Source of the DNA: an uncultured Eubacteriales bacterium
GTDB taxonomy: Bacteria; Bacillota; Clostridia; Christensenellales; Aristaeellaceae
Reading direction: 5' to 3'
NCBI GenBank assembly: GCA_902790525.1
Contig: CADASI010000005.1
Span: 1-41,924 of the forward strand
DNA length: 41,924 bases
The stretch's first letter is position 1. Each line of letters opens with the position of its first letter. The translations under genes were made by a program, and so were the position numbers. The notes beneath the pieces were generated by a model. That model did no database searches, had not been told where the DNA came from, and saw only the letters and a list, made by a program, of their open reading frames with translations. Of this stretch, positions 5,961-39,840 are shown one piece after another.

Positions 5961-5995
5961 GTTCATACCTCCCGATATTCACTCACGTTTCAGTT

Positions 5996-19755: not shown

Positions 19756-20337
19756 ATGCTGAAAGCAGAAATGCTGATCTACATGCCCGATCTGCGCACC
19801 CCGCGGCTCCGACTTCGGAAGCTGACCATGCGGGACGCGCCGGACATCTACCGCTACAGCCGCGACCCGGAGGTCGCCCGCCACGTGCTGTGGGACGCCC
19901 ACCGATCCATCGGCGACAGCCGCGCCTACCTGCGCTACATGCTCAGGCGGTACCGGACCCACGAGTGCGGAAGCTGGGGCATCGAGCTTCTCGAGACCGG
20001 GCGCGTCATCGGCACCATCGGCTTTATGTGGGTGCAGGAGGACAACGCCGCCGCCGAGGTGGGCTATTCCCTCGCCCGCGAGTACTGGGGCCGCGGCCTC
20101 ATGACCGAGGCGCTCCGCGCGGTGATTCAGTACGGCTTCGACCACATGCAATTAAACCGCATCGAGGCCCAGCACGAGACCACCAACCCCGCCTCCGGCG
20201 CGGTCATGCGCAAGTGCCACATGCAGCACGAGGGCACCCTCCGAAGCCGCCTGTTCAATAAGGGCAGGTATGTTGATGTGGAGCTGTACGCGATATTGAG
20301 GAAGGATTATAATAGAACAGGGATGAGAAGAATTTAG
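19756..20337 (+). CDS. GNAT N-acetyltransferase, RimJ/RimL-like
   Basis: A 193-residue acetyltransferase. LRTPRLRLRKLTMRDAPDIYRYSRDPEV is the typical RimJ-like N-terminus, and YWGRGLMTEALRAVI is the acetyl-CoA pyrophosphate loop. The target may be a protein N-terminus, an antibiotic or a small amine. GAGG lies nine bases before the ATG. Its stop TAG and final Ile codon (AATTTAG) lie inside repeat copy 1, so the insertion set or preserved its end. A TATAAT at 20308-20313 lies within its last codons. Confidence 0.87.
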   Translation: MLKAEMLIYMPDLRTPRLRLRKLTMRDAPDIYRYSRDPEVARHVLWDAHRSIGDSRAYLRYMLRRYRTHECGSWGIELLETGRVIGTIGFMWVQEDNAAAEVGYSLAREYWGRGLMTEALRAVIQYGFDHMQLNRIEAQHETTNPASGAVMRKCHMQHEGTLRSRLFNKGRYVDVELYAILRKDYNRTGMRRI

Positions 20338-20483
20338 AATTTAGAATTGAGAATTGAGAGTTAATGTGGAAATCCTTCCGGATTTCTTTGATTACAGCAT
20401 CCCGACGCGACCCATTTCAGTCAAACAAATCCGAAGGATTTGCACCGCCATTCTCAATTCTCAATTTTCAATTCTCAATTTCC
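20331..20483 (+). repeat. AATT-arm repeat element, copy 1
   Basis: The left arm has AATTTAG and GAATTGAGA units; the right arm has the inverse CTCAATTCTCAATTTTCAATT. The core has AAATCCTTCCGGATTTCTT on the left and CAAATCCGAAGGATTTGCAC then CGCCATT on the right, each able to fold as a small hairpin. The same right core occurs at 27222-27252 and 39774-39803. The element begins at the stop codon of the GNAT gene and ends about 57 bases before the DUF362 start. Confidence 0.85.
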
Positions 20484-20539
20484 ATTACCGCCAATCCCCC
20501 GCCTCATCACAACCCAACACCACCCCAAAGGAGGTTCTT

Positions 20540-21667
20540 ATGGAAAAAGCCAAGGTTTACTTCACCGACTTCCGCACGCACGTGGGGGTCAGCCAGGGCG
20601 TGAAGCTGCAAAAGCTGTGCCGCGCCGCGGGCATCGAGGGCATCGACTTCGAGGGCAAGTTCGTGGCGATCAAGATGCACTTCGGCGAGCTGGGCAACTT
20701 CGCCTACCTGCGGCCGAACTACGTCAAGGCCGTGGCCGACCTGATCCGCGAGTTGGGCGGCAAGCCCTTCCTGACCGACTGCAACACGCTCTACCCCGGC
20801 TCCCGCAAGAACGCCGTCGACCACCTGGCCTGCGCGGAGATCAACGGCTTCAACTCCGTCACCACCGGCTGTCAGATCATCATCGCCGACGGCCTGCGGG
20901 GCACCGACGACGTCGAGGTCCCGGTGGTTAATGGCGAGTGCTGTCAGACGGCGCTGGTGGGCCAGGCGCTGATGGACGCCGACGTGCTGATCTCCCTGAC
21001 CCACTTCAAGGGCCACGAGATGACCGGCTTCGGCGGCGCGATCAAAAACATCGGCATGGGCGGCGGCAGCCGCGCCGGCAAGATGCACCAGCACAACGAG
21101 GGCACGCCCATCGTCGATCCCGCCCTCTGCCGGGGCTGCAAGCGCTGCGCCCGGGAGTGTGGCAGCGACGCCATCACCTACGGCGCGGACCGCAAGGCGT
21201 TCATCGACCCCGCGATCTGCAAGGGCTGCGGCCGCTGCATCGGGGCCTGCGCCTTCGACGCCATCAGCAACGTAAACGGCAGCGCCACCGAGATGCTCTG
21301 CCGCAAGATGGCGGAGTACACCCAGGCCATCTGCCACGGCAGGCCCTGCTTCCACATCAGCCTGATCATGGACGTGTCCCCCAACTGCGACTGCCACGAC
21401 GAGAACGACGCGCCGATACTGCCCAACATCGGCATGCTGGCGTCCTTCGATCCCGTCGCACTGGACCAGGCCTGCGCCGACCTGTGCCAGCAGGCCACGC
21501 CCATCCGCAACAGCCAGCTGGGCGACAACCTGGCCAAACCGGACTGGCACCACCACCACGACCACTTCATGGACTCCAACCCCAACGTGCGCTGGAAGGA
21601 GACCCTCGCCCACGGCGAAAAGATCGGCCTGGGCACCCGGGAATACGAATTGTGCGTCATTAAATGA
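20540..21667 (+). CDS. DUF362 protein with two [4Fe-4S] ferredoxin sites
   Basis: A 375-residue soluble protein. The first 190 residues are DUF362, with MHFGELGN, LTDCNTLYPGSR and SLTHFKGHEMTGFGGAIKNIGMG. Two bacterial ferredoxin motifs follow at about 197-208 (CRGCKRCARECG) and 227-237 (CKGCGRCIGAC). The C-terminus has HHHHDHF and NPNVRW. Such proteins are common in anaerobes and are presumed electron carriers or redox enzymes, but I know of no proven reaction. AAAGGAGG precedes the ATG at 20540; upstream in-frame codons lie in the repeat and are not coding. It ends at a terminator. Confidence 0.9.
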   Translation: MEKAKVYFTDFRTHVGVSQGVKLQKLCRAAGIEGIDFEGKFVAIKMHFGELGNFAYLRPNYVKAVADLIRELGGKPFLTDCNTLYPGSRKNAVDHLACAEINGFNSVTTGCQIIIADGLRGTDDVEVPVVNGECCQTALVGQALMDADVLISLTHFKGHEMTGFGGAIKNIGMGGGSRAGKMHQHNEGTPIVDPALCRGCKRCARECGSDAITYGADRKAFIDPAICKGCGRCIGACAFDAISNVNGSATEMLCRKMAEYTQAICHGRPCFHISLIMDVSPNCDCHDENDAPILPNIGMLASFDPVALDQACADLCQQATPIRNSQLGDNLAKPDWHHHHDHFMDSNPNVRWKETLAHGEKIGLGTREYELCVIK

Positions 21668-21680
21668 CCTCTTCCCACAC

Positions 21681-21707
21681 CCGCCGCCGAAAGGCGGCGG
21701 ATTTTTT
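21681..21707 (+). terminator. Terminator after the DUF362 gene
   Basis: An 8-bp GC stem CCGCCGCC-GAAA-GGCGGCGG (21681-21700) is followed by ATTTTTT. It begins 13 bases after the stop. Confidence 0.95.
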
Positions 21708-21740
21708 GCATAAAAATCCACCGAACCCGCCGTCCGCACA

Positions 21741-21769
21741 TTGACAAACAACCGATAAATATATATAAT
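21741..21769 (+). promoter_or_regulatory. Promoter of the sugar ABC operon
   Basis: A perfect TTGACA (21741-21746) and a perfect TATAAT (21764-21769) are separated by 17 bases. The transcript would start near 21776 and have a leader of about 75 bases. Confidence 0.92.
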
Positions 21770-21809
21770 AACATCATGGTGAGTCTGAACAGAATGTCAG
21801 GCTGATTAT

Positions 21810-21824
21810 ATGCCGTATCGGCAT
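21810..21824 (+). promoter_or_regulatory. Palindrome in the sugar operon leader
   Basis: ATGCCG-TAT-CGGCAT forms a perfect 6-bp inverted repeat about 25 bases before the binding-protein start and 12 bases before its AAAAGGAGG. It could be a repressor operator or an RNA hairpin near the ribosome site. No regulator gene is nearby. Confidence 0.45.
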
Positions 21825-21849
21825 GTTATATTAAAAGGAGGTTATCACC

Positions 21850-22764
21850 ATGAAGAAAGCGCTTGCGCTCGTACTCGTCCTGCTCATCGCCCTGACCTCT
21901 TCGGCGTTCGCCGCCGACAAGCTGGGCTTCCTGCCCCCGGCCATGACCAGCCCCTTCTATGCCAGCTGCATCGAAGGCGCGACCCCCGTTGCGGACGCGC
22001 TCGGCTATGAGCTGGAGATCCTTGCGCCCCCGTCGGAGGATGACTACGCCACCCAGACGTCCATGATGGAGGACTTCATCACCCAGGGCGTCAAGGGCAT
22101 CGCGGTTTGCGGCATCAACCTGGACGCGCTGATCCCCGCCATCAAGAAGGCCAACGAGGCCGGCATCCCGGTGGTCATGTTCAACACCATCACCGAGCTG
22201 GAGGGCGCGGACGTATACGCCTATTCCGGATACAACCAGTACAACGGCGGCGCCAAGATCGCCGACTGGGTCAATGAGAAGATGAACGGCGAAGCCGTCG
22301 TGGCCATTATCGAGGGCCTGCCGTCCGACTACACCACCCAGCGCATGGGCGGCTTCGTCGACAAGTGCAAGGAATCCTATCCCGGCATCACCGTGGTTGC
22401 CACTCAGCCCGGCGACTGGGTACGTGAGAAGGGCATGAACGCCGCGATGGACATGATCCAGGCGCATCCCGAAATCAACGTGATCTACGGCCTGTCCGAT
22501 GAGATGGCTCTGGGCGCCGTGCAGGCGTGCAAGCAGCTCAACCGCGACGACATCATCTGCGTCGGCCTCGACGGCAACCCCAACGCGAAGGAAGCCGTGA
22601 AGTCCGGCGAGCTGGACGGCACCCTGGACTGCGGCCCCGTCGCCATCGGCGCGAACGCCATCAAGGCGCTGGCCGACGCCATCGACGGCGTTGAGCGCAC
22701 CGACAAGATCATCGAGGCTGAGACCACCGTCGTGGACAGCACCAACGTCGATCAGTTCCTTTAA
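21850..22764 (+). CDS. Sugar ABC transporter substrate-binding protein
   Basis: A 304-residue periplasmic-binding protein of the ribose/galactose class. A signal peptide of about 21 residues ends in SAFA|AD. The mature protein has FLPPAMTSPFYASCIEGA at the sugar-binding start, GIAVCGINLDALIPAIKKANEAGIPVVMFN and IICVGLDGNPNAKEAV. There is no cysteine after the signal peptide, so it is not a lipoprotein, which is unusual for a single-membrane Gram-positive. AAAAGGAGG lies seven bases or so upstream. First gene of the transport and catabolism operon. The bound sugar cannot be told from sequence. Confidence 0.92.
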   Translation: MKKALALVLVLLIALTSSAFAADKLGFLPPAMTSPFYASCIEGATPVADALGYELEILAPPSEDDYATQTSMMEDFITQGVKGIAVCGINLDALIPAIKKANEAGIPVVMFNTITELEGADVYAYSGYNQYNGGAKIADWVNEKMNGEAVVAIIEGLPSDYTTQRMGGFVDKCKESYPGITVVATQPGDWVREKGMNAAMDMIQAHPEINVIYGLSDEMALGAVQACKQLNRDDIICVGLDGNPNAKEAVKSGELDGTLDCGPVAIGANAIKALADAIDGVERTDKIIEAETTVVDSTNVDQFL

Positions 22765-22789
22765 TCCTTCAATCGGCAAGCGAACCCGT

Positions 22790-22813
22790 GCGGCGGCGCA
22801 TACGCGCCGCCGC
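22790..22813 (+). other. Intercistronic hairpin after the binding-protein gene
   Basis: A 10-bp perfect GC stem, GCGGCGGCGC-ATAC-GCGCCGCCGC, lies 25 bases after the stop and has no strong T-run. Such hairpins often leave the binding-protein part of an ABC mRNA more stable and abundant than the part downstream. Confidence 0.75.
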
Positions 22814-22854
22814 GTTTCAATGAAATACAGACTCTGACAGGGGGTGAATCACCG

Positions 22855-24357
22855 GTGGCAGAATTCCTCGAAATGCGCGGCATCGTCAAGCGCTTTCCCG
22901 GCGTGCTGGCGCTGGATCATGTCAACCTCTCCGTGCGCAAGGGCGAGGTGCATGCACTGCTGGGCGAGAACGGCGCCGGCAAATCGACCTTGATGAAGAT
23001 ACTGTCCGGCGCGTACCAGAAGGACGAGGGCGACATCTTCTTCGACGGGCAGAAGGTGGAGATCAATTCCGCCCAGGACGCGCAGGCGCTGAACATATCC
23101 ACCATCTACCAGGAGCTGAACCTGACCGAACAGCTCACGGTGGCCGAAAACATATTCATGGGCCGCCAGCTGATGAAAAACCGCTTCCAGGTGGATTGGC
23201 GCAGGATGTACGACGAGGCCCAGAAGCTGCTGGACGACCTGGGCGTGGCGGTAAACGCCCACCAGCTCGTGCGCGATCTGGGCGTCGCGCAAAAGCAGAT
23301 GGTGGAGGTCGCCAAGGCGCTGAGCATCAATTCCAAGGTGCTGATACTGGACGAGCCCACCGCCCCGCTGACCAACCGCGAGATCGACACGCTGTTCGAC
23401 ACCATCCGGATGCTCAAGTCCAGGGGCGTCTCCATGATCTACATCTCCCACCGCCTCGAGGAGGTCATGGAGATCTGCGACCGCGCGACGATCATGCGCG
23501 ACGGCGCGAACGTGACCGCGCTGAACGTGGCCGACACCAACCTGGACGAAATCATCCGCTACATGGTGGGCCGCGAGCTGAAGGAAAAGTTCCCGAAGAT
23601 CCAGACCACGCCCGGCAAGGAGCGCCTGCGCGTCGAGGACATCCATGCGGGCAAGCAGGTCAACGGCGTGTCGCTGTCCGCCCGGGGCGGCGAGATACTG
23701 GGCATCGCGGGCCTGGTCGGCGCGGGCCGCACCGAGACCGCCCGCGCGATATTCGGCATGGACCCGAAGGAGTCCGGCGAGATCTACGTGGACGGCCAGA
23801 AGGTGTCCATCCAGCAGCCGCTGGACGCCATCAAGGCAGGCATCGGCTTCGTCACCGAGGACCGCAAGGGCGAGGGCCTGGTGCTGCCGCTGCCCATCAG
23901 CCAGAACATGACGCTGGCGACGCTTGACAAGTTCGGCGCGTCGCTTCACCTGAACCTTGGGCAGGAGAAGGCCACCGTCAACGAGTACATCGGAAAGCTG
24001 AACATCAAAACGCCCTCCATGCAGCAGCTGGCGCGGAACCTCTCCGGCGGCAACCAGCAGAAGGTGGTGCTGGCCAAGTGGCTGCTGAGCGATTCCAAGG
24101 TCATCATATTCGACGAGCCCACCCGCGGCATCGACGTCGGTGCGAAGATCGAGGTCTACAACATCATCAACGACCTGATCCGCCAGGGCGTCGCGGTCAT
24201 CATGATCTCCTCGGAGCTTCCGGAGATACTGGGCATGTCCGACCGGGTCGCCGTCATGCACCAGGGCGAGATCACCGGCGTATTCGACAACGACGGCACG
24301 CTGACCCAGGAGAAGATACTCTACTACGCCACCGGCGGCGACAAGCACACCGCATAG
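22855..24357 (+). CDS. Sugar ABC transporter ATP-binding protein (two ATPase domains)
   Basis: A 500-residue RbsA/MglA-type ATPase that powers sugar import. The first domain has Walker A GENGAGKST, the signature-position DLGVAQKQMVEVAKAL and Walker B LILDEPTAPL. The second has a degenerate Walker A, GLVGAGRTE, a good signature LSGGNQQKVVLAKWL and Walker B VIIFDEPTRGIDVG. The degenerate second loop is normal for this family. The start is GTG at 22855 with GGGGGTG about nine bases upstream. Second gene of the operon. Confidence 0.95.
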   Translation: MAEFLEMRGIVKRFPGVLALDHVNLSVRKGEVHALLGENGAGKSTLMKILSGAYQKDEGDIFFDGQKVEINSAQDAQALNISTIYQELNLTEQLTVAENIFMGRQLMKNRFQVDWRRMYDEAQKLLDDLGVAVNAHQLVRDLGVAQKQMVEVAKALSINSKVLILDEPTAPLTNREIDTLFDTIRMLKSRGVSMIYISHRLEEVMEICDRATIMRDGANVTALNVADTNLDEIIRYMVGRELKEKFPKIQTTPGKERLRVEDIHAGKQVNGVSLSARGGEILGIAGLVGAGRTETARAIFGMDPKESGEIYVDGQKVSIQQPLDAIKAGIGFVTEDRKGEGLVLPLPISQNMTLATLDKFGASLHLNLGQEKATVNEYIGKLNIKTPSMQQLARNLSGGNQQKVVLAKWLLSDSKVIIFDEPTRGIDVGAKIEVYNIINDLIRQGVAVIMISSELPEILGMSDRVAVMHQGEITGVFDNDGTLTQEKILYYATGGDKHTA

Positions 24358-24390
24358 TCCCGCACCAATAACATTGAAGAAGGTATCGCT

Positions 24391-25689
24391 ATGAAGAAAA
24401 ATCTGAAGATCGTATTCATCGTCTGCCTGGTGCTGGGCATTGCGCTGGGTGCGCTGAACCTGTACGCGGCGTCTCAGCGGGGCCATCTGGCCGAGCTGGA
24501 GGAGCAGCAGGCCGCCCGCAAGAAGGCGCTGGGCCAGATCGCCGCCGCCGACATCCTCGGCATCAACCCGGACGACGTGGTGGTGCCGGACGAGGTGGAG
24601 TTCACCAGCGCCGACCGCTTCGTCATCGCCGTCAACAGCGTCTCCTCCATCCTCTGGGTGTGCGCCATCGACCTGATCATCGTGGGCGCCGGCGGCCTCT
24701 TGTACACGATGTTCAAGAACCGCCGGAAGGAGAAGGGCGTCAAGAAGCTGAGCTCCTCCAACAACGTGCTGGGCATCGTGATCGCGCTGGCGGCGCTGTG
24801 CCTGGATTTGGCCATCGCCTCCCCGGTGTTTTTGACCTCGTCGAACTTCCTGAACGTTTTCCAGCAGATCTCCATCAACTTCGTGGTGGCCGTGGGCATG
24901 ACCTTCGTCATCATCTCCGGCGGCATCGACCTGTCGGTCGGCTCGAACATCGCGCTGTCCGGCCTGCTGATGGGCATACTGATGAAGAACTACCACGTGC
25001 CGGTGTTCGTGACGATACTGGTCTGCATACTGTTCTCTGGCGTCATCGGCCTGATCAACGGCATGCTGATCTCCTTCTTGAGCCTGCCGCCGTTCATCGC
25101 GACGCTGGGCACCATGTCCATCGTGCGCGGCGCGGCCTACACCGTCACCGCGGGCCAGCCCATCTACACCTTCCCCGCCGGCTTCACCGCGGTGTCCGGC
25201 CGCGTGGCGGGCATCCCGGTGTGGTCCACGCTGATCATGCTGGCGGTCATACTGCTGGGCTGGTACATCCTCAAGTACACCCGCATCGGCCGCTTCACCT
25301 ACGCCATCGGCGGCAATGAGAGCTGCGCCAAGCTGTCGGGCATCAACCTGCGCAAGGTCAAGTGCTTCGTGTACGTGGTCAGCGGCCTGTGCTGCGGCGT
25401 GGCGGCGCTCTTGCTGTCCTCGCGCCTCGACTCCGCCGTGCCCACCAACGCCGACGGCCAGGAGATGGACGCCATCGCCGCGGTCGTCATCGGCGGCACC
25501 TCCATGTCCGGCGGCGAGGGCTCCATGATCGGCACCCTCATCGGCATACTGATCATCGGCATCATCGCCAACGGGCTTAACCTGCTGGGCGTGGCCCAGG
25601 GCCCCCAGAAGATGGTCAAGGGCCTGATCATCGTGGTCGCCGTCATCATCGACGTCATCCGCAGGAAGGCCTCGCAGTCCGCGAAGTAA
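24391..25689 (+). CDS. Sugar ABC transporter permease with N-terminal extension
   Basis: A 432-residue membrane protein. Residues from about 120 are an RbsC-like permease with FVIISGGIDLSVGSNIALSG and the C-terminal AVVIGGTSMSGGEGSMIGTL, both standard. The first 115 residues are extra: a membrane helix (about 5-25), a Glu/Arg/Ala-rich probable coiled coil (about 28-55), a loop and a second helix (about 80-108), then a basic KNRRKEKGVKK stretch. RbsC proteins are usually about 320 residues, so this adds two helices and an outward or inward loop of unknown role. Confidence 0.93.
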   Translation: MKKNLKIVFIVCLVLGIALGALNLYAASQRGHLAELEEQQAARKKALGQIAAADILGINPDDVVVPDEVEFTSADRFVIAVNSVSSILWVCAIDLIIVGAGGLLYTMFKNRRKEKGVKKLSSSNNVLGIVIALAALCLDLAIASPVFLTSSNFLNVFQQISINFVVAVGMTFVIISGGIDLSVGSNIALSGLLMGILMKNYHVPVFVTILVCILFSGVIGLINGMLISFLSLPPFIATLGTMSIVRGAAYTVTAGQPIYTFPAGFTAVSGRVAGIPVWSTLIMLAVILLGWYILKYTRIGRFTYAIGGNESCAKLSGINLRKVKCFVYVVSGLCCGVAALLLSSRLDSAVPTNADGQEMDAIAAVVIGGTSMSGGEGSMIGTLIGILIIGIIANGLNLLGVAQGPQKMVKGLIIVVAVIIDVIRRKASQSAK

Positions 25690-25703
25690 TCGCGGCGGAC
25701 AAT

Positions 25704-25733
25704 CGCCGGACGGCGCGGAAGCCCCGTCCGGCG
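25704..25733 (+). other. Intercistronic hairpin after the permease gene
   Basis: CGCCGGACGG (25704-25713) pairs with CCGTCCGGCG (25724-25733) around 10 bases, with no T-run. It separates the transport genes from the catabolic genes and may tune the mRNA. Confidence 0.7.
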
Positions 25734-25767
25734 GCAGATTGTATCACACTGACCGGAGGATAACACT

Positions 25768-27171
25768 ATGGGAAAGAAAATGACATTTGCGCTGGCGTTC
25801 GCCAACCGCGGCTTCATGCCGGGCGAATTGATCTACGGCGCGCGGGAGGACATGATCAAGGCCGTGACCAACGCCGGCTACGGCTACATCGCCATGGACG
25901 CCGAGCTCACGCGCTACGGCGGTATCGAGACCCGGGACGAGGGCCTCATGTACGCCAAATGGCTCAAGGAGCACGAGGGCCAGTTTGACGGCGTGATCTT
26001 CTCAATGCCGATATTTGCCGACGAAAACGGCGCGATCACGGCGCTGCAGGACGCCGGCGTGCCGATCCTCATGCAGGCGTACCCCGACGAGATCGGCAAG
26101 ATGGACTTCAAGCACCGCCGCGACGCCTTCTGCGGCAAGTTCTCCGTGACCGACGTGTTCACGCAGTACGGCGTGCCGTTCACGGTGTTGAAGCCCCACG
26201 TCGTGCACCCCCTGACCCCGGCGTTTGCGCAGAACCTTCGTGACTTCGCGGCGGTCTGTCGCGTGGTCAACGGCATGAAGCGCTTCAACGTGGGCTGCAT
26301 CGGCGCGCGCACCACGGCGTTCAAGACCGTGCGCTTCGACGAGCTGACGCTTCAAAAGTACGGCATCAACGTGGAGTCCTTCGACCTGTCGGAGCTGGTC
26401 TACAAGGTCGGAAAGCTCGGCGAGGACGACCCGAAGGTCATCGCGAAGATGGCGGCGCTTGAAAAGTACACCGACTTCTCCGGCGTGCCGCAGAAGAACA
26501 TGGTGACGCTTTCAAAGATCGGCGTGGTGATCGACCAATACATCGAGGAGTACCGCCTCGACGCGCTGACCCTCAGGTGCTGGAACGAGATGGAGACGAT
26601 CCTGCGCGTGTGCCCGTGCGTGCTGCTGTCCGAATTGAACGACCGCGGCATCCCGGCAAGCTGCGAGATCGACATGTGCTCCGCGCTCACCATGCGCGCC
26701 ATGGCGCTGGCCAGCGAGATGCCCACCGCGGTCCTCGACTGGAACAACAACTACGGCGACGACGAGAACAAGGTGATACTGTTCCACTGCGGCCCGGTGG
26801 CCCAGCAGCTCATGACCGGACGCGGCACCGTGACCGAGCACAAGATGTTCGCCAAGGGCGACCCCGGCAGCGGCTGGGGCACCAACGAGGGCCGCATCCG
26901 CGCCTTCCCCACCACCATTGCCAACTGCCAGACGGTGGACGGCAAGCTCATCATGTACGCCTCCGAGGCCGAGTTCACCGACGATCCCATCGAGGACGGC
27001 TACTTCGGCTGCGCGGGCGTGTGCCATGTCCCCGACATGCAGAACAAGATGATCCGCCTCGCCCGCGGCGGCTTCAAGCACCACACCTCTGTCGGCGTGG
27101 GGCACATGAAGGATGTGCTCAAGGAAGCGTTTACGACGTACCTCCATTACGACTGGGTGGAGATCGACTAA
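25768..27171 (+). CDS. Sugar isomerase, L-fucose/L-arabinose isomerase family
   Basis: A 467-residue cytosolic enzyme expected to turn the imported aldose into its ketose. Metal ligands: Glu300 in SCEIDMC, Asp324 in LDWNNNYG, and a C-terminal histidine near 447 in GGFKHHTSVGVGHMK. The fold resembles the gene at 14361, but they are distant. Its operon places it after the permease and before an FGGY kinase. The final stop TAA (27169-27171) coincides with the first bases of repeat copy 2. ACCGGAGGATAACACT precedes the ATG. Confidence 0.87.
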   Translation: MGKKMTFALAFANRGFMPGELIYGAREDMIKAVTNAGYGYIAMDAELTRYGGIETRDEGLMYAKWLKEHEGQFDGVIFSMPIFADENGAITALQDAGVPILMQAYPDEIGKMDFKHRRDAFCGKFSVTDVFTQYGVPFTVLKPHVVHPLTPAFAQNLRDFAAVCRVVNGMKRFNVGCIGARTTAFKTVRFDELTLQKYGINVESFDLSELVYKVGKLGEDDPKVIAKMAALEKYTDFSGVPQKNMVTLSKIGVVIDQYIEEYRLDALTLRCWNEMETILRVCPCVLLSELNDRGIPASCEIDMCSALTMRAMALASEMPTAVLDWNNNYGDDENKVILFHCGPVAQQLMTGRGTVTEHKMFAKGDPGSGWGTNEGRIRAFPTTIANCQTVDGKLIMYASEAEFTDDPIEDGYFGCAGVCHVPDMQNKMIRLARGGFKHHTSVGVGHMKDVLKEAFTTYLHYDWVEID

Positions 27172-27282
27172 TTAGGAATTAGGAATGAGGAATTAGGAAT
27201 TTATGAGGAACGGAATCAATCGGACAAATTCCGAAGGAATTTGCACCACCATTCCTCACTCCTAATTCCTAATTCCTCATTC
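27169..27282 (+). repeat. AATT-arm repeat element, copy 2
   Basis: The left arm is AATTAGGAATTAGGAATGAGG and the right arm the inverse CCTCACTCCTAATTCCTAATTCC. The core is shorter than in the other copies but keeps ACAAATTCCGAAGGAATTTG then CACCACCATT. It starts at the isomerase stop codon, and ends 17 bases before the kinase start, in the same operon. Confidence 0.87.
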
Positions 27283-27298
27283 AAACCGGAGGTTTATA

Positions 27299-28798: not shown

Positions 28799-28804
28799 AA
28801 CACG

Positions 28805-28990
28805 GGCTGTCTCAAGGCGAACCAACGCTGAACAATTCACCGTAGGGGCGGCATTCTTGCCGCCCGCGGACGCCATGAATGGCGTCCCTACGGCTATACA
28901 TTCATACGCCATGTAGGGGCGCCGATGCGGCGCCCGCCCAATCAGAATCCATGGTTTTCTGTCGGGCGGGCGCCCATTGGGCGCCCCTAC
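28805..28990. repeat. GC-rich palindromic repeat cluster
   Basis: GGGCTGTCTCAA (28804-28815) matches the ends of the element at 35801-35963. It is followed by two palindromic units bounded by TAGGGGCG and its inverse: 28843-28890 and 28914-28990. The second shares GGCGCCGATGCGGCGCCCGC plus CAGAATCCATGGTT with 35843-35885. The 218-base gap between the kinase and the convergent endolysin gene holds these and nothing coding. No matching right end was found. Confidence 0.8.
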
Positions 28991-29016
28991 ATCGGGTTTG
29001 GCCGTATATCATTTCG

Positions 29017-30055: not shown

Positions 30056-30079
30056 ACGCCGCCCCGCCCGGCGTCACAC

Positions 30080-30610: not shown

Positions 30611-30616
30611 GCGCGT

Positions 30617-31582: not shown

Positions 31583-31608
31583 AATGTACCTCCGCATGCG
31601 TCATTCCC

Positions 31609-31637
31609 ACATTAGCACGGCGTGGGCCTCGTGTCAA
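31609..31637 (-). promoter_or_regulatory. Promoter of birA-bioY
   Basis: On the minus strand TTGACA (31637-31632) and TAATGT (31614-31609) are spaced by 17 bases, with an extended -10 TGCTAATGT. Its -35 lies inside the BirA operator. Confidence 0.82.
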
Positions 31638-31662
31638 CCGGATTGTGTAAACAGGGTGACAA
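31632..31662. promoter_or_regulatory. BirA operator
   Basis: TGTCAACC (31632-31639), 15 bases, GGTGACAA (31655-31662). This matches the known BirA half-site pattern TTGTnAACC-N14-16-GGTTnACAA with few changes, and it overlaps the -35 of the birA promoter. Binding of biotinyl-AMP-loaded BirA would shut off birA and bioY. Confidence 0.85.
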
Positions 31663-31748
31663 TTATTCTATATGTGACATGCGATGCCCATCTTTATGCC
31701 GTCTTAATGCTACCATAGGCATTTTTATATTCCCTTTTATGTTAAATG

Positions 31749-31757
31749 TGGTATAAT
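31749..31757 (+). promoter_or_regulatory. Extended -10 promoter of the kdpDE-trk operon
   Basis: TGGTATAAT (31749-31757) is an extended -10. The region upstream is AT-rich, with only a weak -35 (TTCCCT, 16 bases away). It lies about 30 bases before the ATG at 31790. Confidence 0.55.
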
Positions 31758-31789
31758 CAAAGGAAATAATACGGTGGGAGGCGAGGGTC

Positions 31790-33751: not shown

Positions 33752-34463
33752 ACCGTTGATACTGGTGGTCGAGGACGACGCGGCCGTGCGCAACCTGATG
33801 GCGGTGACCCTGGACACCCAGGGCTACCGCTACCACCTGGCCCGCAACGGCGCGGAGGCGCTGATCGAGGCCACCACGCACCAGCCCGCCGTGATGCTGT
33901 TGGACCTGGGTCTGCCGGACATGGAGGGCGTGGACATCATCCGCCGGGTGCGGGGCTGGACGGGCATGCCCATCATCGTGGTGTCCGCCCGGGGCGAGGA
34001 CACCGACAAGGTGGAGGCGCTGGACGCCGGCGCGGACGACTACCTCACCAAGCCCTTCTCGGTGGACGAGCTGCTGGCGCGGCTGCGAGTGGCGCTTCGG
34101 CGGGTGAACGCGGAGCCGACGCCCAACCAGGAGGACGCGGTGTATGAAAACGGCGCGCTGCGCATCGACTACGCCGCAGGCTGCGCCTTCATTGCCGAGC
34201 GGGAGATCCACCTGACCCCCATCGAGTACAAGCTGTTGTGCCTGCTGGCCCGCAACACCGGCAAGGTGCTGACCCACAACTACATCTTCAAGGAGATCTG
34301 GGGCAGCTACACCGCCTCGGACGTGGGCTCTTTGCGTGTGTTCATGGCGACGCTTCGCAAGAAGCTCCAGACCGGCGGGGGCGAGCAGCCCTACATCCAG
34401 ACCCACATCGGCATCGGCTACCGCATGCTCAAGCCGGAGGGCCGGGGAGAGGATGCGCTGTGA
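33741..34463 (+). CDS. kdpE: KdpE-like response regulator
   Basis: A 240-residue OmpR-type regulator. The receiver has Asp55 in LLDLGLPD, the EDD acid pocket at 11-13 and Lys in LTKPF. The winged-helix domain has HLTPIEYKLLCLLARNTGKVLTH and RVFMATLRKKL. Its ATG overlaps the end of kdpD by 11 bases, with GGAGG inside kdpD, and its stop overlaps the transporter start. The most likely target is this operon. Confidence 0.95.
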   Translation: MNNKPLILVVEDDAAVRNLMAVTLDTQGYRYHLARNGAEALIEATTHQPAVMLLDLGLPDMEGVDIIRRVRGWTGMPIIVVSARGEDTDKVEALDAGADDYLTKPFSVDELLARLRVALRRVNAEPTPNQEDAVYENGALRIDYAAGCAFIAEREIHLTPIEYKLLCLLARNTGKVLTHNYIFKEIWGSYTASDVGSLRVFMATLRKKLQTGGGEQPYIQTHIGIGYRMLKPEGRGEDAL

Positions 34464-35785
34464 TCGCCCGCATCAGGGCCCGGGACCGGATGGGCCAGCC
34501 CGAGGAATGGCTGGTGTTCGGCTTTCTTCTCGTGATATTGCTGGGCGCGGCGCTCTTGTCGCTGCCCGTCGCGGCGCGGGACGGCCACAGCATCGGCCTG
34601 TTCGACGGCCTGTTCACGGCGGCCTCCGCGGTGTGCGTGACCGGGCTGGTGGCGGTGGACACCGGCGCCACCTTCGCCCCCTTCGGTCAGCTCGTGCTGC
34701 TCGTGCTCATACAGGTGGGCGGGCTGGGGTTCATGGTGTTCGCCACCATGATACTGGTGATGCTGGGCCGCAAGATCTCCATCAAGGGCCGCATGCTGAT
34801 CCGCGAATCCATGAACGGCTCCTCGCTGACCGATCTGGGCGGGCTCACGCGGCTCTACCTTTTGCTGGCGCTGGGCATCGAGCTCGTCGGCGCGGCGCTG
34901 CTCGCCCTGCGGTTCGTGCCGCTGTACGGCGTCAAAAAGGGGCTGTGGTACGCGCTGTTTCACGCCGTCAGCGCTTTCTGCAACGCGGGCTTTGACCTGT
35001 TCGGGGGTTTTTCCAGCCTGACCGCCCACGCCCGCGACCCGCTGGTGCTGCTGACCGTCGCGGCACTGATCGTGCTGGGCGGGCTGGGCTTTGCCGTGAT
35101 CCTGGAAACCCTGCGCAACCGGCAGGGCTTTCGCGCCATGTCGCTGCACGCCCGCATCGTGCTGACCTTCACCCCGGCGCTGCTGCTCGCGGGCACGGCC
35201 TACTTCATGCTGGTCGAGCGCATGGACGCCTTAAACGCCCTGTTTCAGTCCGTCACGCTGCGCACGGCAGGCTTCAACACCGTGGACCTGTCCGCCATGA
35301 AGGACGGCTCCAAGCTGTTTTCCACCATGCTGATGGCCATCGGCGCGTCCCCGGCCTCCACCGGCGGCGGCATGAAGACCACCACCGTGGCGGTGGTGGC
35401 CATGCTGATACTGAGCGTCGTGAAGGGCGACAGCGAGGTCAACGCCGCCCGCCGCCGACTGTCCGGCGACGTCGTGCGCCGCGCGCTGGTGGTGGTGACG
35501 CTGTTCCTCGCCACGCTGACCCTGGGCACGCTGGCCGTGACGCTCATCGAGGACGGCCGGTTCACGCTGGCCGACCTGCTGTTCGAGTGCGCCAGCGCCA
35601 TGGGCACCGTGGGCGTCTCCGCCGTCGGCACGCCGAACCTCACCGCTGCCAGCCGCGCCGTGCTGATCCCCATGATGTTCCTCGGGCGCGTAGGCCCGCT
35701 GACGCTGGCCGTGGCCGTCGCCCGCCGACAGGGGCGGGTCCGGGGACCGTCGAAGTACCCGGAGGAGAAGATCATGATCGGGTAA
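34460..35785 (+). CDS. Trk/Ktr-type K+ transporter membrane subunit
   Basis: A 441-residue membrane protein with the four pore repeats of the TrkH/KtrB family; the filter-loop segments are SAVCVTGL, SAFCNAGF, TLRTAGFNT and AMGTVGVSA. GASPASTGGGMKTTT is the gating loop region. The length fits KtrB more than TrkH. It begins with GTG overlapping the kdpE stop (GTGA), with GGAGAGG upstream. The cytoplasmic NAD/ATP-binding partner (KtrA/TrkA) is not in the window; the repeat at 35801 begins 16 bases after the stop. Confidence 0.92.
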   Translation: MIARIRARDRMGQPEEWLVFGFLLVILLGAALLSLPVAARDGHSIGLFDGLFTAASAVCVTGLVAVDTGATFAPFGQLVLLVLIQVGGLGFMVFATMILVMLGRKISIKGRMLIRESMNGSSLTDLGGLTRLYLLLALGIELVGAALLALRFVPLYGVKKGLWYALFHAVSAFCNAGFDLFGGFSSLTAHARDPLVLLTVAALIVLGGLGFAVILETLRNRQGFRAMSLHARIVLTFTPALLLAGTAYFMLVERMDALNALFQSVTLRTAGFNTVDLSAMKDGSKLFSTMLMAIGASPASTGGGMKTTTVAVVAMLILSVVKGDSEVNAARRRLSGDVVRRALVVVTLFLATLTLGTLAVTLIEDGRFTLADLLFECASAMGTVGVSAVGTPNLTAASRAVLIPMMFLGRVGPLTLAVAVARRQGRVRGPSKYPEEKIMIG

Positions 35786-35800
35786 AAAACACAGGGACGA

Positions 35801-35963
35801 AAGGGACTGTCTCAAAACGCATATAGATACATGAGACATGCGTAGGGGCGCCGATGCGGCGCCCGCCCAAGCAGAATCCATGGTTCCGTCCGGGCGGGCG
35901 GCGCATCGCCGCCCCTACAACATGCACACACTTGTATGATTATGCGTTTTGAGACAGCCCCTT
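35801..35963. repeat. MITE-like element with GGGCTGTCTCAAAACG inverted ends
   Basis: Ends of 23 bases, 35801-35823 and 35941-35963, are inverted copies with one mismatch; their core is CTGTCTCAAAACGCATA. Nested inside is a GC-rich palindrome, 35843-35918, bounded by TAGGGGCG and CGCCCCTA and related to 28914-28990. It has no coding capacity. It supplies the last codons and stop of queH on the minus strand. I see no clear target duplication. Confidence 0.85.
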
Positions 35964-36578
35964 CTTGTAATCCCTTCTCCTGGAAAACACGCATCCGCAG
36001 TAGTCCTGCCGGTAGAGGCCGTAGAGCTCCGACAGCTCGCAGGAGCGCTTATAGCCGTTTTTCTTTTTGAAATCGCAGGGCAGCCAGGGCACGCCCGCGC
36101 CGGCGGACAGCTCCAGGCCGATAAAGTTGATCAGCTGCGCGTCCTTCAGCGGGCTGATGGTGAGGGTGGTGGTGAAGTAGTCGTCGCCCCGCGCGGCGGC
36201 CAGCTTCGCCGTCTCCGCAAGCCGGAGCCGGAAGCACCTTTCGCACCGCGCGCCGCCCTCGGGGTCGTCCTCGTGGCCGCGCACGGCGTCGTAGAACACC
36301 TGCGGGTCGTAGGCCCCCCGGATGACCTCGATGCGGCCCTCGTGGGGCAGCGCCTCTGCAAGCCGGATCTGCTCGGCCACCCGGTGCTCGAACTCCTCCG
36401 CCGGGGCGATGTTGGGGTTGTAGTAGAACACGGCGATGTCGAAGGCGCGGTTCAGGTACTCCAGCACATAGCTGGAGCACGGCGCGCAACAGCTGTGCAG
36501 CAGTAGCCGCGGCCGCCTGCCGGAATCCGCGATCTTTTTAAGCTCCCTGTCCAGTTCGATCTGATAGTTTGTCTTCAT
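35940..36578 (-). CDS. queH: Epoxyqueuosine reductase QueH
   Basis: A 212-residue Fe-S enzyme for the last step of queuosine synthesis. LLLHSCCAPCSSYVLEYL provides the Cys-Cys and CxxC ligands, GARCERCFRLRL the second pair, and QDYCGCVFS lies near the C-terminus. The family normally ends soon after YCGCVFS; here the last eight codons (KKGLSQNA) and the stop come from the repeat element, so its original end was probably replaced. The function should be unaffected. The promoter is at 36614-36642. Confidence 0.93.
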   Translation of the reverse strand: MKTNYQIELDRELKKIADSGRRPRLLLHSCCAPCSSYVLEYLNRAFDIAVFYYNPNIAPAEEFEHRVAEQIRLAEALPHEGRIEVIRGAYDPQVFYDAVRGHEDDPEGGARCERCFRLRLAETAKLAAARGDDYFTTTLTISPLKDAQLINFIGLELSAGAGVPWLPCDFKKKNGYKRSCELSELYGLYRQDYCGCVFSRRRDYKKGLSQNA

Positions 36579-36613
36579 GGCGTAAAAACCGCTCCCCTCT
36601 CGTCATCGCCCCT

Positions 36614-36642
36614 ATGATACCACATACCGTGCGGGAATGCAA
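36614..36642 (-). promoter_or_regulatory. Promoter of queH
   Basis: On the minus strand TTGCAT (36642-36637) and TATCAT (36619-36614) are spaced by 17 bases, with an extended -10 TGGTATCAT. Confidence 0.7.
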
Positions 36643-36746
36643 TTCCCCGCCCTTCCGCCGTCGTTTAAATCGGATTTAACCGTTCCTTGCTGATTCCGAC
36701 ACGCTCCCGGTCTTATAATATAGGATGGAAAAAAGGAGCTGATACC

Positions 36747-37409
36747 ATGTATAGCATCGTGGATCTCTACGACCTGGACCACACCCTGGCGAAGGACTAC
36801 CTCTCCCGGTTCACGTATCCGTGGGAGGCGCTCAAGGGCATCAAGGAGATGATCCTCAATCTGGGCAAAACCCTGGACCCCTCGGAGTACGACGAGGTCT
36901 CCGAAAACGTGTGGGTGCACAGGACCGCGAAGGTGTTCCCCTCGGCCTACCTCGGCGCGCCCTGCATCATCGGGCCCAACACGGAGGTGCGGCACTGTGC
37001 CTTCATCCGCGGCTCGGCGCTGGTGGGCGCGGACTGCGTGGTGGGCAATTCCTGTGAGCTCAAGAACGTGATACTGTTCGACCACGTGCAGACCCCCCAC
37101 TACAACTACGTGGGCGACTCCATACTGGGCTATTGCTCCCACATGGGCGCGGGGTCCATCACCTCGAACGTGCGCTCGGACAAGAAGCTGGTGGTGGTGC
37201 ACGCCCCCGAGGGCGGCATCGAGACCGGCATCAAGAAGTTCGGCGCCATGCTGGGCGACTACGTGGAGTGCGGCTGCAATTCGGTTTTGAACCCGGGCAC
37301 CGTGGTGGGCCGCCACAGCAACATCTATCCCACCTCCTGCGTGCGCGGGGTGGTGCCGGAGCACAGCATCTACAAGAACAGCGGCGAGATCGTCGCCAAA
37401 CAGGACTGA
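36747..37409 (+). CDS. Left-handed beta-helix acyltransferase, GlmU-like C-terminal type
   Basis: A 220-residue protein whose middle (about 60-200) is a hexapeptide-repeat beta helix: VFPSAYLGAPCIIGPNTEVRHCAFIRGSALVGADCVVG and AMLGDYVECGCNSVLNPGTVVG. Similar proteins are often labelled UDP-N-acetylglucosamine pyrophosphorylase, but the uridyltransferase domain is absent, so acetylation of an amino-sugar phosphate is more likely. Next to nagB and glmM it fits a UDP-GlcNAc supply unit. AAAGGAG precedes the ATG at 36747. TATAAT at 36714-36719 is a probable -10, but the -35 is poor. Confidence 0.83.
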   Translation: MYSIVDLYDLDHTLAKDYLSRFTYPWEALKGIKEMILNLGKTLDPSEYDEVSENVWVHRTAKVFPSAYLGAPCIIGPNTEVRHCAFIRGSALVGADCVVGNSCELKNVILFDHVQTPHYNYVGDSILGYCSHMGAGSITSNVRSDKKLVVVHAPEGGIETGIKKFGAMLGDYVECGCNSVLNPGTVVGRHSNIYPTSCVRGVVPEHSIYKNSGEIVAKQD

Positions 37410-37433
37410 ATCGATAAAAGGAGAGATTGGACC

Positions 37434-38173
37434 ATGCGAGTCGTCATTCAGGAAAACTACGAGAAGATGTGCAAGTGGGCCGCCAACTACATCGCGGCGA
37501 AGATCAACGCCCATCCCGCCGATAAGCCCTTCGTGCTGGGCCTGCCCACCGGCTCCTCGCCCATCGGCGTGTACAGGGAGCTGGCCAGGATGAACCACGC
37601 CGGCGAGGTATCCTTTGCCAACGTCGTCACCTTCAACATGGACGAGTACCTGGGCCTGCCCCGCGAGCATGACCAGTCCTACTGGTACTTCATGCACGAC
37701 AACTTCTTCAACCACCTGGTGGACATGAAGCCGGAGAACATCAACATCCTCAACGGCATGTGCGCGGACCCCGAGGCCGAGTGCGCGGCCTACGAGGCCA
37801 AGATCGCCTCCTACGGCGGCATCGACCTGTTCATGGGCGGCATCGGCGTGGACGGCCACCTGGCCTTCAACGAGCCCTTCACCTCCCTGACCAGCCGCAC
37901 CGGCGTGATCCCGAGAAGGTGCCCGCCAAGGCGCTGTCCGTGGGCATCGCCACCGTCACCGACTCCAAGGAGGTGCTGATCCTCATCAACGGCCACAACA
38001 AGGCCCGGGCGCTGGCGGCCTCCGTCGAGGGCGGCGTCAGCCAGAAGTGGACCTGCTCCGCGCTGCAGATGCACCCCGCCGCCATCATCGCCTGCGACGA
38101 GCCGGCCTGCGGCGAGCTGACCGTGGACACCTACAAGTATTTCCTGGACATCGAGAAGGCCGAGAGGCTGTAA
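37434..38173 (+). pseudogene. nagB: Glucosamine-6-phosphate deaminase, deletion and frameshift
   Basis: The first frame (37434 to about 37910) gives a normal NagB N-terminus: [44 protein letters not shown] and TSLTSRT. After SRTGVI the frame fails. A second frame resumes at [16 protein letters not shown] and runs to the normal C-terminus (INGHNKARALAA, DEPACGELTV, KYFLDIEKAERL) and stop at 38173. Compared with E. coli NagB, 23 residues expected between SRT and VP-AL are reduced to 17 bases, so 52 bases are missing, which accounts exactly for the shift. The missing part includes the phosphate-binding ANSRFF region. It could be a true recent deletion or an assembly error. A product read only in frame one would be 181 residues and inactive. 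Confidence 0.88.
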
Positions 38174-38185
38174 TGAGGTAACGAT

Positions 38186-39574
38186 ATGGGCAAATATTTC
38201 GGCACCGACGGCTTCCGGGGCGAGGCCAACATCAACCTGACCGCGGACCACGCCTATCAGGTGGGCCGCTTCCTGGGCTGGTATTACAGCCAGCAGCGCA
38301 AGTTCTCGGGCAACCGCGAGCGCGCGCAGATCGTCATCGGCAAGGACACCCGCCGCTCCTCCTACATGTTCGAGTACGCGCTGATCGCCGGCCTGACCGC
38401 CTCCGGCGCGGACGCCTACATGCTGCACGTCACCACCACGCCCAGCGTGGCCTGGGTGACCCATGCGGACGAGTTCGACTGCGGCATCATGATCTCCGCC
38501 TCCCACAACCCCTACTACGACAACGGCATCAAGCTGCTGAACGGCCACGGCGAGAAGATGGGCGAGGACACCATCAAGCTGATCGAGGACTACCTGGACG
38601 GCAATCTCAACGTGTTCGGCCAGCAGGTGAAGGAGCTGCCCTTCGCCACCAAGGAGAACATCGGCCAGACGGTGGACTACGTCAGCGGCCGCAACCGCTA
38701 CGTGGGCTACCTGATCAGCCACGGCCTGTACAGCTTCCGCGGCCTGCGCATCGGCCTGGACTGCGCCAACGGCGCCTCCTGGATGATCGCCAAGGCGGTG
38801 TTCGAGGCCCTGGGCGCACGCACCTACGTGATGGGCGCGGAACCCAACGGCCTGAACATCAACAACGGCGTGGGCTCCACCCACATCGAGGCGCTCCAGC
38901 AGTTCGTGCTGGACAACAAGCTGGACGCGGGCTTCGCCTACGACGGCGACGCCGACCGCTGCCTGTGCGTGGACGAGAAGGGCGACGTGCTCACCGGCGA
39001 CCACATCATGTTCGCCTACGCCTGCTACATGCAGGACCGCGGCAAGCTGGTGGACAAGCCCGTGGTGACCACCGTCATGAGCAACTTCGGCCTGTTCAAG
39101 GCGCTTAACGAGCGCGGCATCGACTGCGTGAAGACCAAGGTGGGCGACAAGTACGTCTACGAGTACATGACCACCCACGGCTGCCGCCTGGGCGGCGAGC
39201 AGTCCGGCCACATCATCTTCTCCAAGTACGCCACCACCGGCGACGGCATACTGACCTCCCTCAAGATGATGGAGTGCATGCTGGCCCGCAAGAAGAAGAT
39301 GAGCGAGCTGTGCGAGGGCTTCCAGATGTACCCGCAGGAGCTCATCAACGTCCGGGTCTACGACAAGACCGAGGCCCAGAACGACCCCGACGTGCAGGCC
39401 GCCGTCAAGGCCGTGGCCGAGCAGCTCGGCGAGACCGGCCGCATACTCGTGCGCGAGTCCGGCACCGAACCCGTGGTGCGCGTGATGGTCGAGGCCGAGT
39501 CCGACGACCTCTGCCTCGAGCTCTGTAACCGCGTCGTGGACGTCATCAAGGCCAAGGGACACGCCGTGAAGTAA
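38186..39574 (+). CDS. glmM: Phosphoglucosamine mutase
   Basis: A 462-residue mutase that turns glucosamine-6-phosphate into glucosamine-1-phosphate for UDP-GlcNAc and wall synthesis. FGTDGFRG is the N-terminal motif, the phosphoserine is Ser106 in SASHNPYYDNGIK, the metal loop is DGDADRC, the sugar loop is GEQSGH and the phosphate loop is RESGTEPVVRVM. It is 12 bases after nagB and ends at a strong terminator. Its substrate is the one a working NagB would remove. Confidence 0.96.
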   Translation: MGKYFGTDGFRGEANINLTADHAYQVGRFLGWYYSQQRKFSGNRERAQIVIGKDTRRSSYMFEYALIAGLTASGADAYMLHVTTTPSVAWVTHADEFDCGIMISASHNPYYDNGIKLLNGHGEKMGEDTIKLIEDYLDGNLNVFGQQVKELPFATKENIGQTVDYVSGRNRYVGYLISHGLYSFRGLRIGLDCANGASWMIAKAVFEALGARTYVMGAEPNGLNINNGVGSTHIEALQQFVLDNKLDAGFAYDGDADRCLCVDEKGDVLTGDHIMFAYACYMQDRGKLVDKPVVTTVMSNFGLFKALNERGIDCVKTKVGDKYVYEYMTTHGCRLGGEQSGHIIFSKYATTGDGILTSLKMMECMLARKKKMSELCEGFQMYPQELINVRVYDKTEAQNDPDVQAAVKAVAEQLGETGRILVRESGTEPVVRVMVEAESDDLCLELCNRVVDVIKAKGHAVK

Positions 39575-39583
39575 CTACCCTGC

Positions 39584-39619
39584 AAAAATCTCCGCCGCTT
39601 GTGCGCGGCGGGGATTTTT
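39584..39619 (+). terminator. Terminator after glmM
   Basis: The stem pairs AAAAATCTCCGCCGC (39584-39598) with GCGGCGGGGATTTTT (39605-39619) around TTGTGC, with one G-T pair. It starts 9 bases after the stop. Confidence 0.93.
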
Positions 39620-39633
39620 CTTTTCGGAGATGA

Positions 39634-39662
39634 GTGACAATATTTGTGAGGTATGGTATAAT
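39634..39662 (+). promoter_or_regulatory. Promoter of the HAD/TTD14-like genes
   Basis: GTGACA (39634-39639) and TATAAT (39657-39662) are spaced by 17 bases, with an extended -10 TGGTATAAT. Repeat copy 3 starts two bases downstream, so it would be transcribed as the leader. Confidence 0.75.
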
Positions 39663-39663
39663 G

Positions 39664-39840
39664 TAATTAGGAATTAGGAGTTGGGAATTGGGAATTCATG
39701 TTGAAATCCTTCGGATTTCTTCGATTTAACTGGATTTCGTGCATCGTATACTCGATGATTATTCCCTAAAATCAAGCAAATCCGTCAGGATTTGTACCGC
39801 CATTTCCAATTCCCAATTCCCAATTTCCAATTTCCAATTC
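39664..39840 (+). repeat. AATT-arm repeat element, copy 3
   Basis: The left arm is AATTAGGAATTAGGAGTTGGG and onwards; the right arm the inverse, with CCAATTCCCAATTCCCAA repeated. The core has AAATCCTTCGGATTTCTTCG on the left and CAAATCCGTCAGGATTTG then TACCGCCATT on the right, matching copy 1. The middle of the core differs. It lies in the predicted 5' leader of the HAD gene, ending 23 bases before its ATG. Confidence 0.87.

Follow-up and report, generated by a model that had tools for sequence, protein, structure and literature searches.

A 41,924-nucleotide (nt) stretch of contig CADASI010000005.1 from an uncultured Eubacteriales bacterium of the family Aristaeellaceae (assembly GCA_902790525.1), hereafter the window, holds three copies of an intergenic hairpin, numbered 1 to 3 in order of position, that belong to a large family. 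Each has a purine-strand arm of tandem heptamers, a center, and a facing arm with complementary heptamers. The family has many copies, and these move; the arms keep to a strict 7-nt period and match each other, arm classes have been swapped around one core, and arm length changes on one side by whole heptamers. We judge it moderately probable that these are non-autonomous mobile DNA hairpins that lengthen through 7-nt slippage, have both arms renewed jointly through the hairpin, and depend on an enzyme acting in trans.

Heptamer repeats are known from a number of bacterial phyla, but no cause has been agreed on, according to two accounts of them (PMC4692102, PMC4679880). The present family makes that cause testable, since it offers copies by the hundred together with close relatives, young bursts, and sites that are empty. 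It is also well suited to studying how bacteria copy and rewrite genomic hairpins, whether one arm is rewritten from the other, whether the seven-base step comes from the replication machinery, and what moves the elements.

Seven-Base Arms That Face Inward and Match

Arrays were sampled in 730 kb of this genome (G000; other G numbers, such as G001, G002, G009, and G027, denote relatives, and L numbers denote fetched loci) and in 1.107 Mb of the relative G001. Exact runs of at least 14 at lag 7 numbered 36 in the former and 58 in the latter, against 0 to 3 and 0 to 5, respectively, at lags 3 to 6 and 8 to 13; lag 14 gave 33 and 44. A tolerant search returned 116 (G000) and 216 (G001) arrays at lag 7, together with 63 and 110 segments at lag 6 and 78 and 98 at lag 9, which probably reflect codon periodicity. 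The claim of a 7-nt period rests on the strict exact-run test. The vocabulary of units is small (AATTAGG, AATTGAG, AATTGGG, AGAGTGG, AGAGTGC, AACAGGG, AGGGAGT, AAATGGG, and their relatives), with classes that include AATTRRG, AGAGTNN, and AACAGGG.

Neighboring arrays within 450 bp of each other have a nearly uniform polarity. Among 128 such relations, 121 point inward with the purine strand 5', six are forward-forward, one is reverse-reverse, and none point outward. Both arms carry the identical consensus unit in 21 of 40 hairpins in G000 and 45 of 81 in G001, where the maxima in 10,000 shuffles were 16 and 19; with finer classes, 103 of the 121 hairpins have the same unit class on both sides. 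A sequence-only reading of the window had remarked that arms differ among copies yet stay self-complementary, and this is borne out well beyond the window, as evidenced by a complementarity of 0.876 (G000) and 0.887 (G001) for a hairpin's own arms versus 0.717 and 0.693 when arms are exchanged between hairpins. At L266 (5556-5638), the units of a single right arm are CCTAATT on the inside, then CCTAACT, and CCACACT/CCACTCT on the outside, a gradation suggestive of nested hairpins or of stepwise change in the arm.

A Widespread Family with Exchangeable Arms

The elements are intergenic and measure roughly 110 to 240 bp. That more copies would exist in the genome was implied by the sequence-only reading, and they do: the 3.75-Mb genome contains eight exact matches to the core and 36 relaxed ones (five in the reversed control), and the arm pattern AATTRRGAATTRRG has 250 matches (122+128) versus 0+0 in the reversed control. 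Among 28 genomes of the genus, the arm pattern ranges from 0 to 804 matches per genome; in G016, the reversed control (7+3) exceeds the true matches (2+0). A covariance model of the core of copies 1 and 3, termed core A and built from 13 copies, has matches in 27 of these 28 genomes (best 111 candidates per genome), with per-genome counts that are lower bounds and not strand-free for so nearly palindromic an element. In a wider survey of the family, the AATTRRG pattern was found, patchily, in 45 of 200 genomes, 11 of them in the genus. Outside the genus, several genomes have as many control matches (e.g., G203, with 4+6 versus 4+4), and a clear excess over control is found mainly in G077, G144, G193, and G169. 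Our search of the open-access literature did not turn up any account of such hairpins in the genus.

Besides core A there is at least one other core type, with ends GCTGCCGC/GCGGCAGC. Other dispersed intergenic repeats also lie in or beside the arms (L119, L120, L126, L134, L138, and others), including GTAGGGGCGCCGATGCGGCGCCCGCCC-type palindromes, CCTTCCCCTTCAGGGGAAGG-type repeats, and a further element that opens with TAGAGTGTGTTTCTAAATGCC.

Core A does not keep to one kind of arm. Hairpins with core A only have AGAGTNN arms on both sides in 24 cases, AATKRRG arms on both sides in 16, and mixed or off-class arms in five, and the first two combinations are found in the same genomes. Elsewhere in the genus, the same core is also flanked by AATGGGG, AGTGTGG, AGTGGTT, and AGAGTTG-type arms. 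The arms and the core-arm junction vary together. On a weakly resolved core-A tree of 60 rows, all 58 rows that could be classed on both sides are concordant, and at least seven arm-class changes are needed on the left and at least seven on the right. Three independent pairs sit on well-supported branches, and in all three both arms had switched.

Movement and Turnover at Orthologous Sites

The clearest sign of movement comes from G009, where 12 of 14 fetched loci form one young subfamily whose 150-nt core and right arm are 96 to 100% identical, whose flanks are unrelated (identity at most 36.5%), and whose copies have no coding capacity. The right arm is identical in all 12, whereas the left arm measures 14, 21, or 28 nt in three, three, and five of the 11 readable copies.

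Orthologous sites often change hands. At the copy-2 site, for which 11 ortholog loci were compared, a core A hairpin is common to G000 and G002; AGAGT-type hairpins stand there in G001 and G004, while the G009 hairpin has AACAGGG arms and the GCTGCCGC core and that of G019 has AATTGAG arms and a different loop. Decayed forms are found there in G022 and G025, a remnant in G011, and an empty site in G006, while G020 has a different upstream context. G002 lacks copy 3, and G001 has other elements in its place. Copy 1, compared over eight fetched ortholog loci with L237 and L238 left out, is absent in G002 and shared with G001, which has one extra left heptamer. Between G000 and G001 more broadly, both flanks align for 28 of the 121 hairpins, representing 20 distinct sites, of which seven hold the same hairpin, six a different hairpin, and seven are empty or hold a remnant. 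One orthologous site has three left units in one genome and seven in the other, with equal right arms.

At both of the G009 sites that could be resolved in G027, the hairpin has AACAGGC arms and another core and stands between related outer ends; for a third query, no alignment spanned either element site, and it is uninformative. G009 copies have AACTTGGAATT/AATTCCAAGTT outside their arms, and a similar palindrome stands at the two G027 sites. The hairpins there may be nested insertions into older palindromes. Short palindromes such as AACTTGGAATTTG...CAAATTCCAAGTT also adjoin or flank heptamer hairpins (L341-L352 in G009; L355 and L359 in G027), and their outer stems likewise vary from site to site.

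Joint Renewal of Arms or Plain Inheritance

The mechanism that we favor would have several parts. Replication slippage in 7-nt steps would lengthen and shorten the arrays; both accounts of bacterial heptamers propose slippage by the polymerase (PMC4692102, PMC4679880). A change of unit type would come about when, with the element in hairpin form, one arm serves as the template for rewriting the other, either by template switching at a fork or, during spread, as a single-stranded intermediate primes its own copying. If one arm is templated on the other in this way, both should switch together. Spread would need an enzyme supplied in trans. Most surviving insertions lie between genes, many of them right at the stop codon of the upstream gene.

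The alternative that survives best, which we nevertheless regard as unlikely, is that these are ordinary miniature inverted-repeat transposable elements (MITEs) moved by a transposase, with heptamer arms that are long terminal inverted repeats made of transposase-binding units and inherited within each subfamily without any arm-to-arm copying. Arms would then match because each subfamily began matched. In its favor are defined, dispersing subfamilies, as in the G009 burst; the joint variation of arms and core-arm junction; an inward polarity that is fixed as in terminal inverted repeats; and the seven hairpins common to G000 and G001, none of which displays concerted change in place. However, plain inheritance leaves unexplained why one core underwent at least seven arm-class changes on the best tree, each of them affecting both sides among the rows included. 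Also, no target duplication was seen, and the fetched stretches yielded no candidate autonomous element, though no family search for transposases was made.

Several observations weigh against joint renewal of mobile hairpins as well. First, the matching of arms is incomplete: 18 of 121 hairpins do not have arms of the same class (L023, for instance, has AATTAGG on the left and AGAGTGG on the right), and 36 of 116 arrays in G000 and 54 of 216 in G001 have no partner within 450 bp. Second, the core tree is built on 94 columns, leaves 35 of 52 inner branches open, and omits rows longer than 130 nt, including the mixed-arm L023; its three independent pairs are too few to reach significance (p 0.25). 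Third, the seven hairpins common to G000 and G001 have kept their unit class and changed length on one side, so arm-by-arm correction is not seen at work at this divergence.

Fourth, no clean target-site duplication could be seen by eye at the seven empty or remnant G000/G001 sites, where flanks differ more than by the insert, and none was seen at the G009 copies; nor does complementarity extend beyond the arms as outer terminal repeats in G000 and G001. Standard cut-and-paste transposition is thus not shown. Finally, no driver, whether transposase, reverse transcriptase, or other, was identified, and no family search for one was made, and across about 1.88 Mb of fetched stretches no matched-arm pair encloses a frame of more than 120 codons, as an autonomous parent would. 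Distant arm pairing was considered as a trace of such a parent: among unpaired arrays there are seven forward-reverse combinations within 6 kb, none convincing, two of which share a unit (AACAGGG) at distances of 535 and 461 bp, with longest frames of 120 and 111 codons.

Gene Context and the Case for an RNA Function

Gene calls were made with a simple script of our own, which overlooked some genes that overlap others, among them the GNAT gene ahead of copy 1. By these calls, 88 of the 121 hairpins lie between co-directional genes, 16 between convergent genes, 11 between divergent genes, and six at stretch edges; one of the 121 overlaps a predicted gene by more than 40 bp. In co-directional gaps, hairpins start a median of 9 nt past the upstream stop codon, 45 of the 88 doing so within the span from 20 nt before to 9 nt after that codon. 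They end a median of 47 nt before the next start, which leaves room for the next gene's ribosome site. The sequence-only reading had placed the elements always just upstream of a gene. This is true of the window copies, copy 1 beginning around the upstream stop codon and copy 2 inside it, but it is only half the story for a family that crowds the stop codon of the preceding gene. For hairpins within 12 nt of a stop, that stop is TAA in 18 cases, TAG in 11, and TGA in 15, compared with 423, 208, and 835 among all calls, a usage that fits the arms themselves supplying the stop, as with TAA in copy 2.

This placement, along with the strong predicted folds, suggests an explanation in which the hairpins are selected as operon RNA structures, either elements at stop codons that act on translation or mRNA stability in the manner of repetitive extragenic palindromic (REP) sequences or leader regulators, with the stem preserved by compensatory change. 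In Escherichia coli, REPs within 15 nt of the stop are reported to stall ribosomes (PMC12306157), a position like that at which 45 of the 88 co-directional hairpins begin, and 88 of the 115 hairpins placed between genes are in co-directional gaps. Yet background gaps of at least 60 bp are mostly co-directional anyway (545 of 865, with 132 convergent and 188 divergent). Also, close relatives gain and lose hairpins at the same sites, and stem and loop sequences are replaced wholesale.

Selection on transcript pairing should leave more G-U pairs than A-C mismatches on the sense strand. With that strand set by the neighboring genes, there are 55 G-U pairs and 60 A-C mismatches (p 0.76). The earlier suggestion that pairing is selected is therefore not supported at the RNA level, in view also of the relatives in which these sites are vacant or carry other hairpins and of the results of terminator scoring at the three window copies. 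The lack of a G-U excess, together with site turnover, favors a DNA-level cause of the matched arms, and we consider selection as RNA improbable, whereas some effect of the hairpins on neighboring genes is still likely. If arms are rewritten jointly in DNA, matched stem changes alone would not prove a functional RNA, and covariation-based RNA discovery would call for corresponding caution.

A more radical version of joint renewal, which we rate as more doubtful still, holds that the arms are not just copied but written. In each round of spread, an activity dependent on the hairpin and working in 7-nt steps would lay the same heptamer on both arms. Arm type would then be a tag that elements acquire and can exchange around an unchanging core, and the related heptamer arrays in Xanthomonas and in cyanobacteria would be traces of that activity, which may be a polymerase, a reverse transcriptase, or a templated extender acting on a single-stranded hairpin. 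Plain microsatellite slippage, with independent heptamer arrays that leave inverted pairs by chance, draws on the reported status of heptamers as the commonest long class of bacterial simple sequence repeats and on the slippage proposed for them (PMC4692102, PMC4679880) but is already refuted in its pure form by 121 inward versus 0 outward relations, units shared within pairs far above shuffles, and shared cores, and we retain slippage as the source of length change.

The Three Copies in the Window

The three repeats lie where the sequence-only reading had put them, in agreement with the sequence and with tandem-repeat calls of period 7 (Table 1). The two small core hairpins that it ascribed to every copy are found in copies 1 and 3; in copy 2, the right one alone remains. 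Its single long hairpin is supported throughout, with predicted folds of -59.9 kcal/mol (z -9.3), -47.4 kcal/mol (z -7.6), and -64.7 kcal/mol (z -7.1) for copies 1, 2, and 3, each of which beats 200 of 200 dinucleotide shuffles.

Table 1. Parts of the three heptamer-armed hairpins in the window
Feature	Coordinates	Strand	Period-7 call	Description
Copy 1, left arm	20329..20364	+	20329-20359	AATTTAG/AATTGAG heptamers, purine strand; stop TAG of upstream GNAT gene (ends 20337) inside arm
Copy 1, core A left hairpin	20369..20386	+		GAAATCC-TTCC-GGATTTC
Copy 1, core A right hairpin	20426..20442	+		CAAATCC-GAA-GGATTTG, then CACCGCCATT
Copy 1, right arm	20446..20480	+	20450-20480	CTCAATT heptamers, pyrimidine strand
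Copy 2, left arm	27170..27201	+	27170-27201	AATTAGG/AATGAGG heptamers; start lies within stop codon (27169-27171) of isomerase-like gene
Copy 2, sole remaining core hairpin	27226..27242	+		AAATTCC-GAA-GGAATTT
Copy 2, right arm	27253..27282	+	27251-27282	CCTAATT/CCTCATT-type heptamers; FGGY kinase start 16 nt further on
Copy 3, left arm	39665..39696	+	39665-39696	AATTAGG/AATTGGG heptamers; promoter-like TATAAT ends 3 nt before
Copy 3, core A left hairpin	39703..39719	+		GAAATCC-TTC-GGATTTC
Copy 3, core A right hairpin	39777..39794	+		CAAATCC-GTCA-GGATTTG
Copy 3, right arm	39802..39840	+	39802-39840	CCCAATT/TCCAATT heptamers; HAD-family gene start 23 nt further on

Copy 1 lies between genes for a GNAT acetyltransferase and a DUF362 ferredoxin-like protein, copy 2 between a fucose-isomerase-like gene and an FGGY kinase gene, and copy 3 between genes for a phosphosugar mutase and an HAD hydrolase. 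From arm end to start codon, the distances are about 59 bases for copy 1 (start at 20540), 16 for copy 2 (27299), and 23 for copy 3 (39864), close to the 17 to 57 bases claimed earlier. The three copies share one orientation relative to their flanking genes, as had been noticed. No general rule follows from this, with seven orientable cores running with and 18 against co-directional genes in the fetched stretches of G000 and G001; the common orientation in the window is a small-sample effect.

No intrinsic terminator, in the form of a GC-rich stem plus T run, was found at copies 1 and 2. Terminator scoring gave weak matches only at the AT-rich inner hairpins of copy 3, and a separate terminator-like site lies upstream of that copy (39595-39611). 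A search of the whole window against Rfam returned no family above the gathering score at the copies, only weak, sub-threshold matches being seen for copy 1, and copy 3 had no match in plasmid and phage collections. As far as these searches of Rfam and of plasmid and phage collections reach, with no IS library among them, no match to a known IS or MITE end emerged, the outcome that would have refuted the sequence-only reading. The sole Rfam match above the gathering score is small-subunit rRNA at 1-86 on the minus strand, cut at its 3' end, the contig starting inside that gene.

Elsewhere in the window, a 1282-residue frame on the plus strand (494-4342) is an apparent fusion of a 4-alpha-glucanotransferase (PF02446, residues 8-466) and a glycogen phosphorylase (PF00343, residues 581-1281), and a 12/24/48-bp tandem repeat (5753-5858) lies within a minus-strand gene (4410-5966). 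In G001 and G016 (L235 and L238), the match to the DUF362 gene beside copy 1 contains one in-frame TGA. By comparison of GlmM, the host falls among uncultured Clostridia, with a best identity of 74%.

Comparison with Known Systems

In overall behavior, the hairpins appear to resemble MITEs and REPINs, small hairpins that are spread in trans, and in build they seem closest to the inverted GGGAATC heptamer pairs of Xanthomonas. With MITEs they share dispersed, near-identical, non-coding copies (12 in G009) and terminal inverted repeats, present here as inward arms, but the arm sequence is not fixed. Conserved REP ends in inverted pairs, such as GTAG-tagged palindromes, are absent here, where the ends are variable heptamers.

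The heptamer repeats of cyanobacteria bear the name STRRs. Together with the TAACTGA repeats of Beggiatoaceae, cyanobacterial heptamers are described as intergenic, near start codons, patchy, and with no known mechanism (PMC4679880), and the present family has the same seven-base tandem units, intergenic location, proximity to start codons, and patchiness. However, those described are direct repeats, with one inverted case in the BOGUAY genome, and that account presents them without a core or matched inverted arms (PMC4679880).

REPINs and REPs, which are reported to be moved by RAYT transposases, are likewise short, high-copy, intergenic, hairpin-forming, and non-autonomous, with a variable paired stem (PMC3116915). 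The arrangement is reversed, in that REPINs are described with conserved ends and a variable spacer (PMC3116915), whereas in the present family it is the middle that is conserved and the ends that vary. Porphyromonas gingivalis offers another combination of a tandem repeat with an inverted-repeat element, reported as a minisatellite inside a MITE, but this is described as one internal minisatellite rather than heptamer arms (PMC4596501). For the copying of one arm from the other, a known route is template switching, by which the arms of imperfect inverted repeats are homogenized in the yeast genes and E. coli mutation reporters described (PMC8604942, PMC7202029); those systems are not heptamer-armed mobile repeats.

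The Xanthomonas GGGAATC heptamers are reported as convergent inverted pairs, 70 and 75 of them in two genomes (PMC4692102), and read in the present phase the unit is AATCGGG, one base from the AATTGGG found here. They too are described as intergenic, G-rich, and paired convergently, with lengths that vary among relatives and a role left unexplained (PMC4692102). On the same account, 83% of them occupy the same context in the two species, generally with no link to mobile elements, and four-unit G-quadruplexes are discussed (PMC4692102). The Xanthomonas repeats as described have a single unit type, a preference for four units, and G-tracts of at least three, whereas several units here lack GGG (AATTGAG, AGAGTGC), and the present hairpins combine many unit types per genome, matched within each hairpin, with conserved cores, movement, and turnover.

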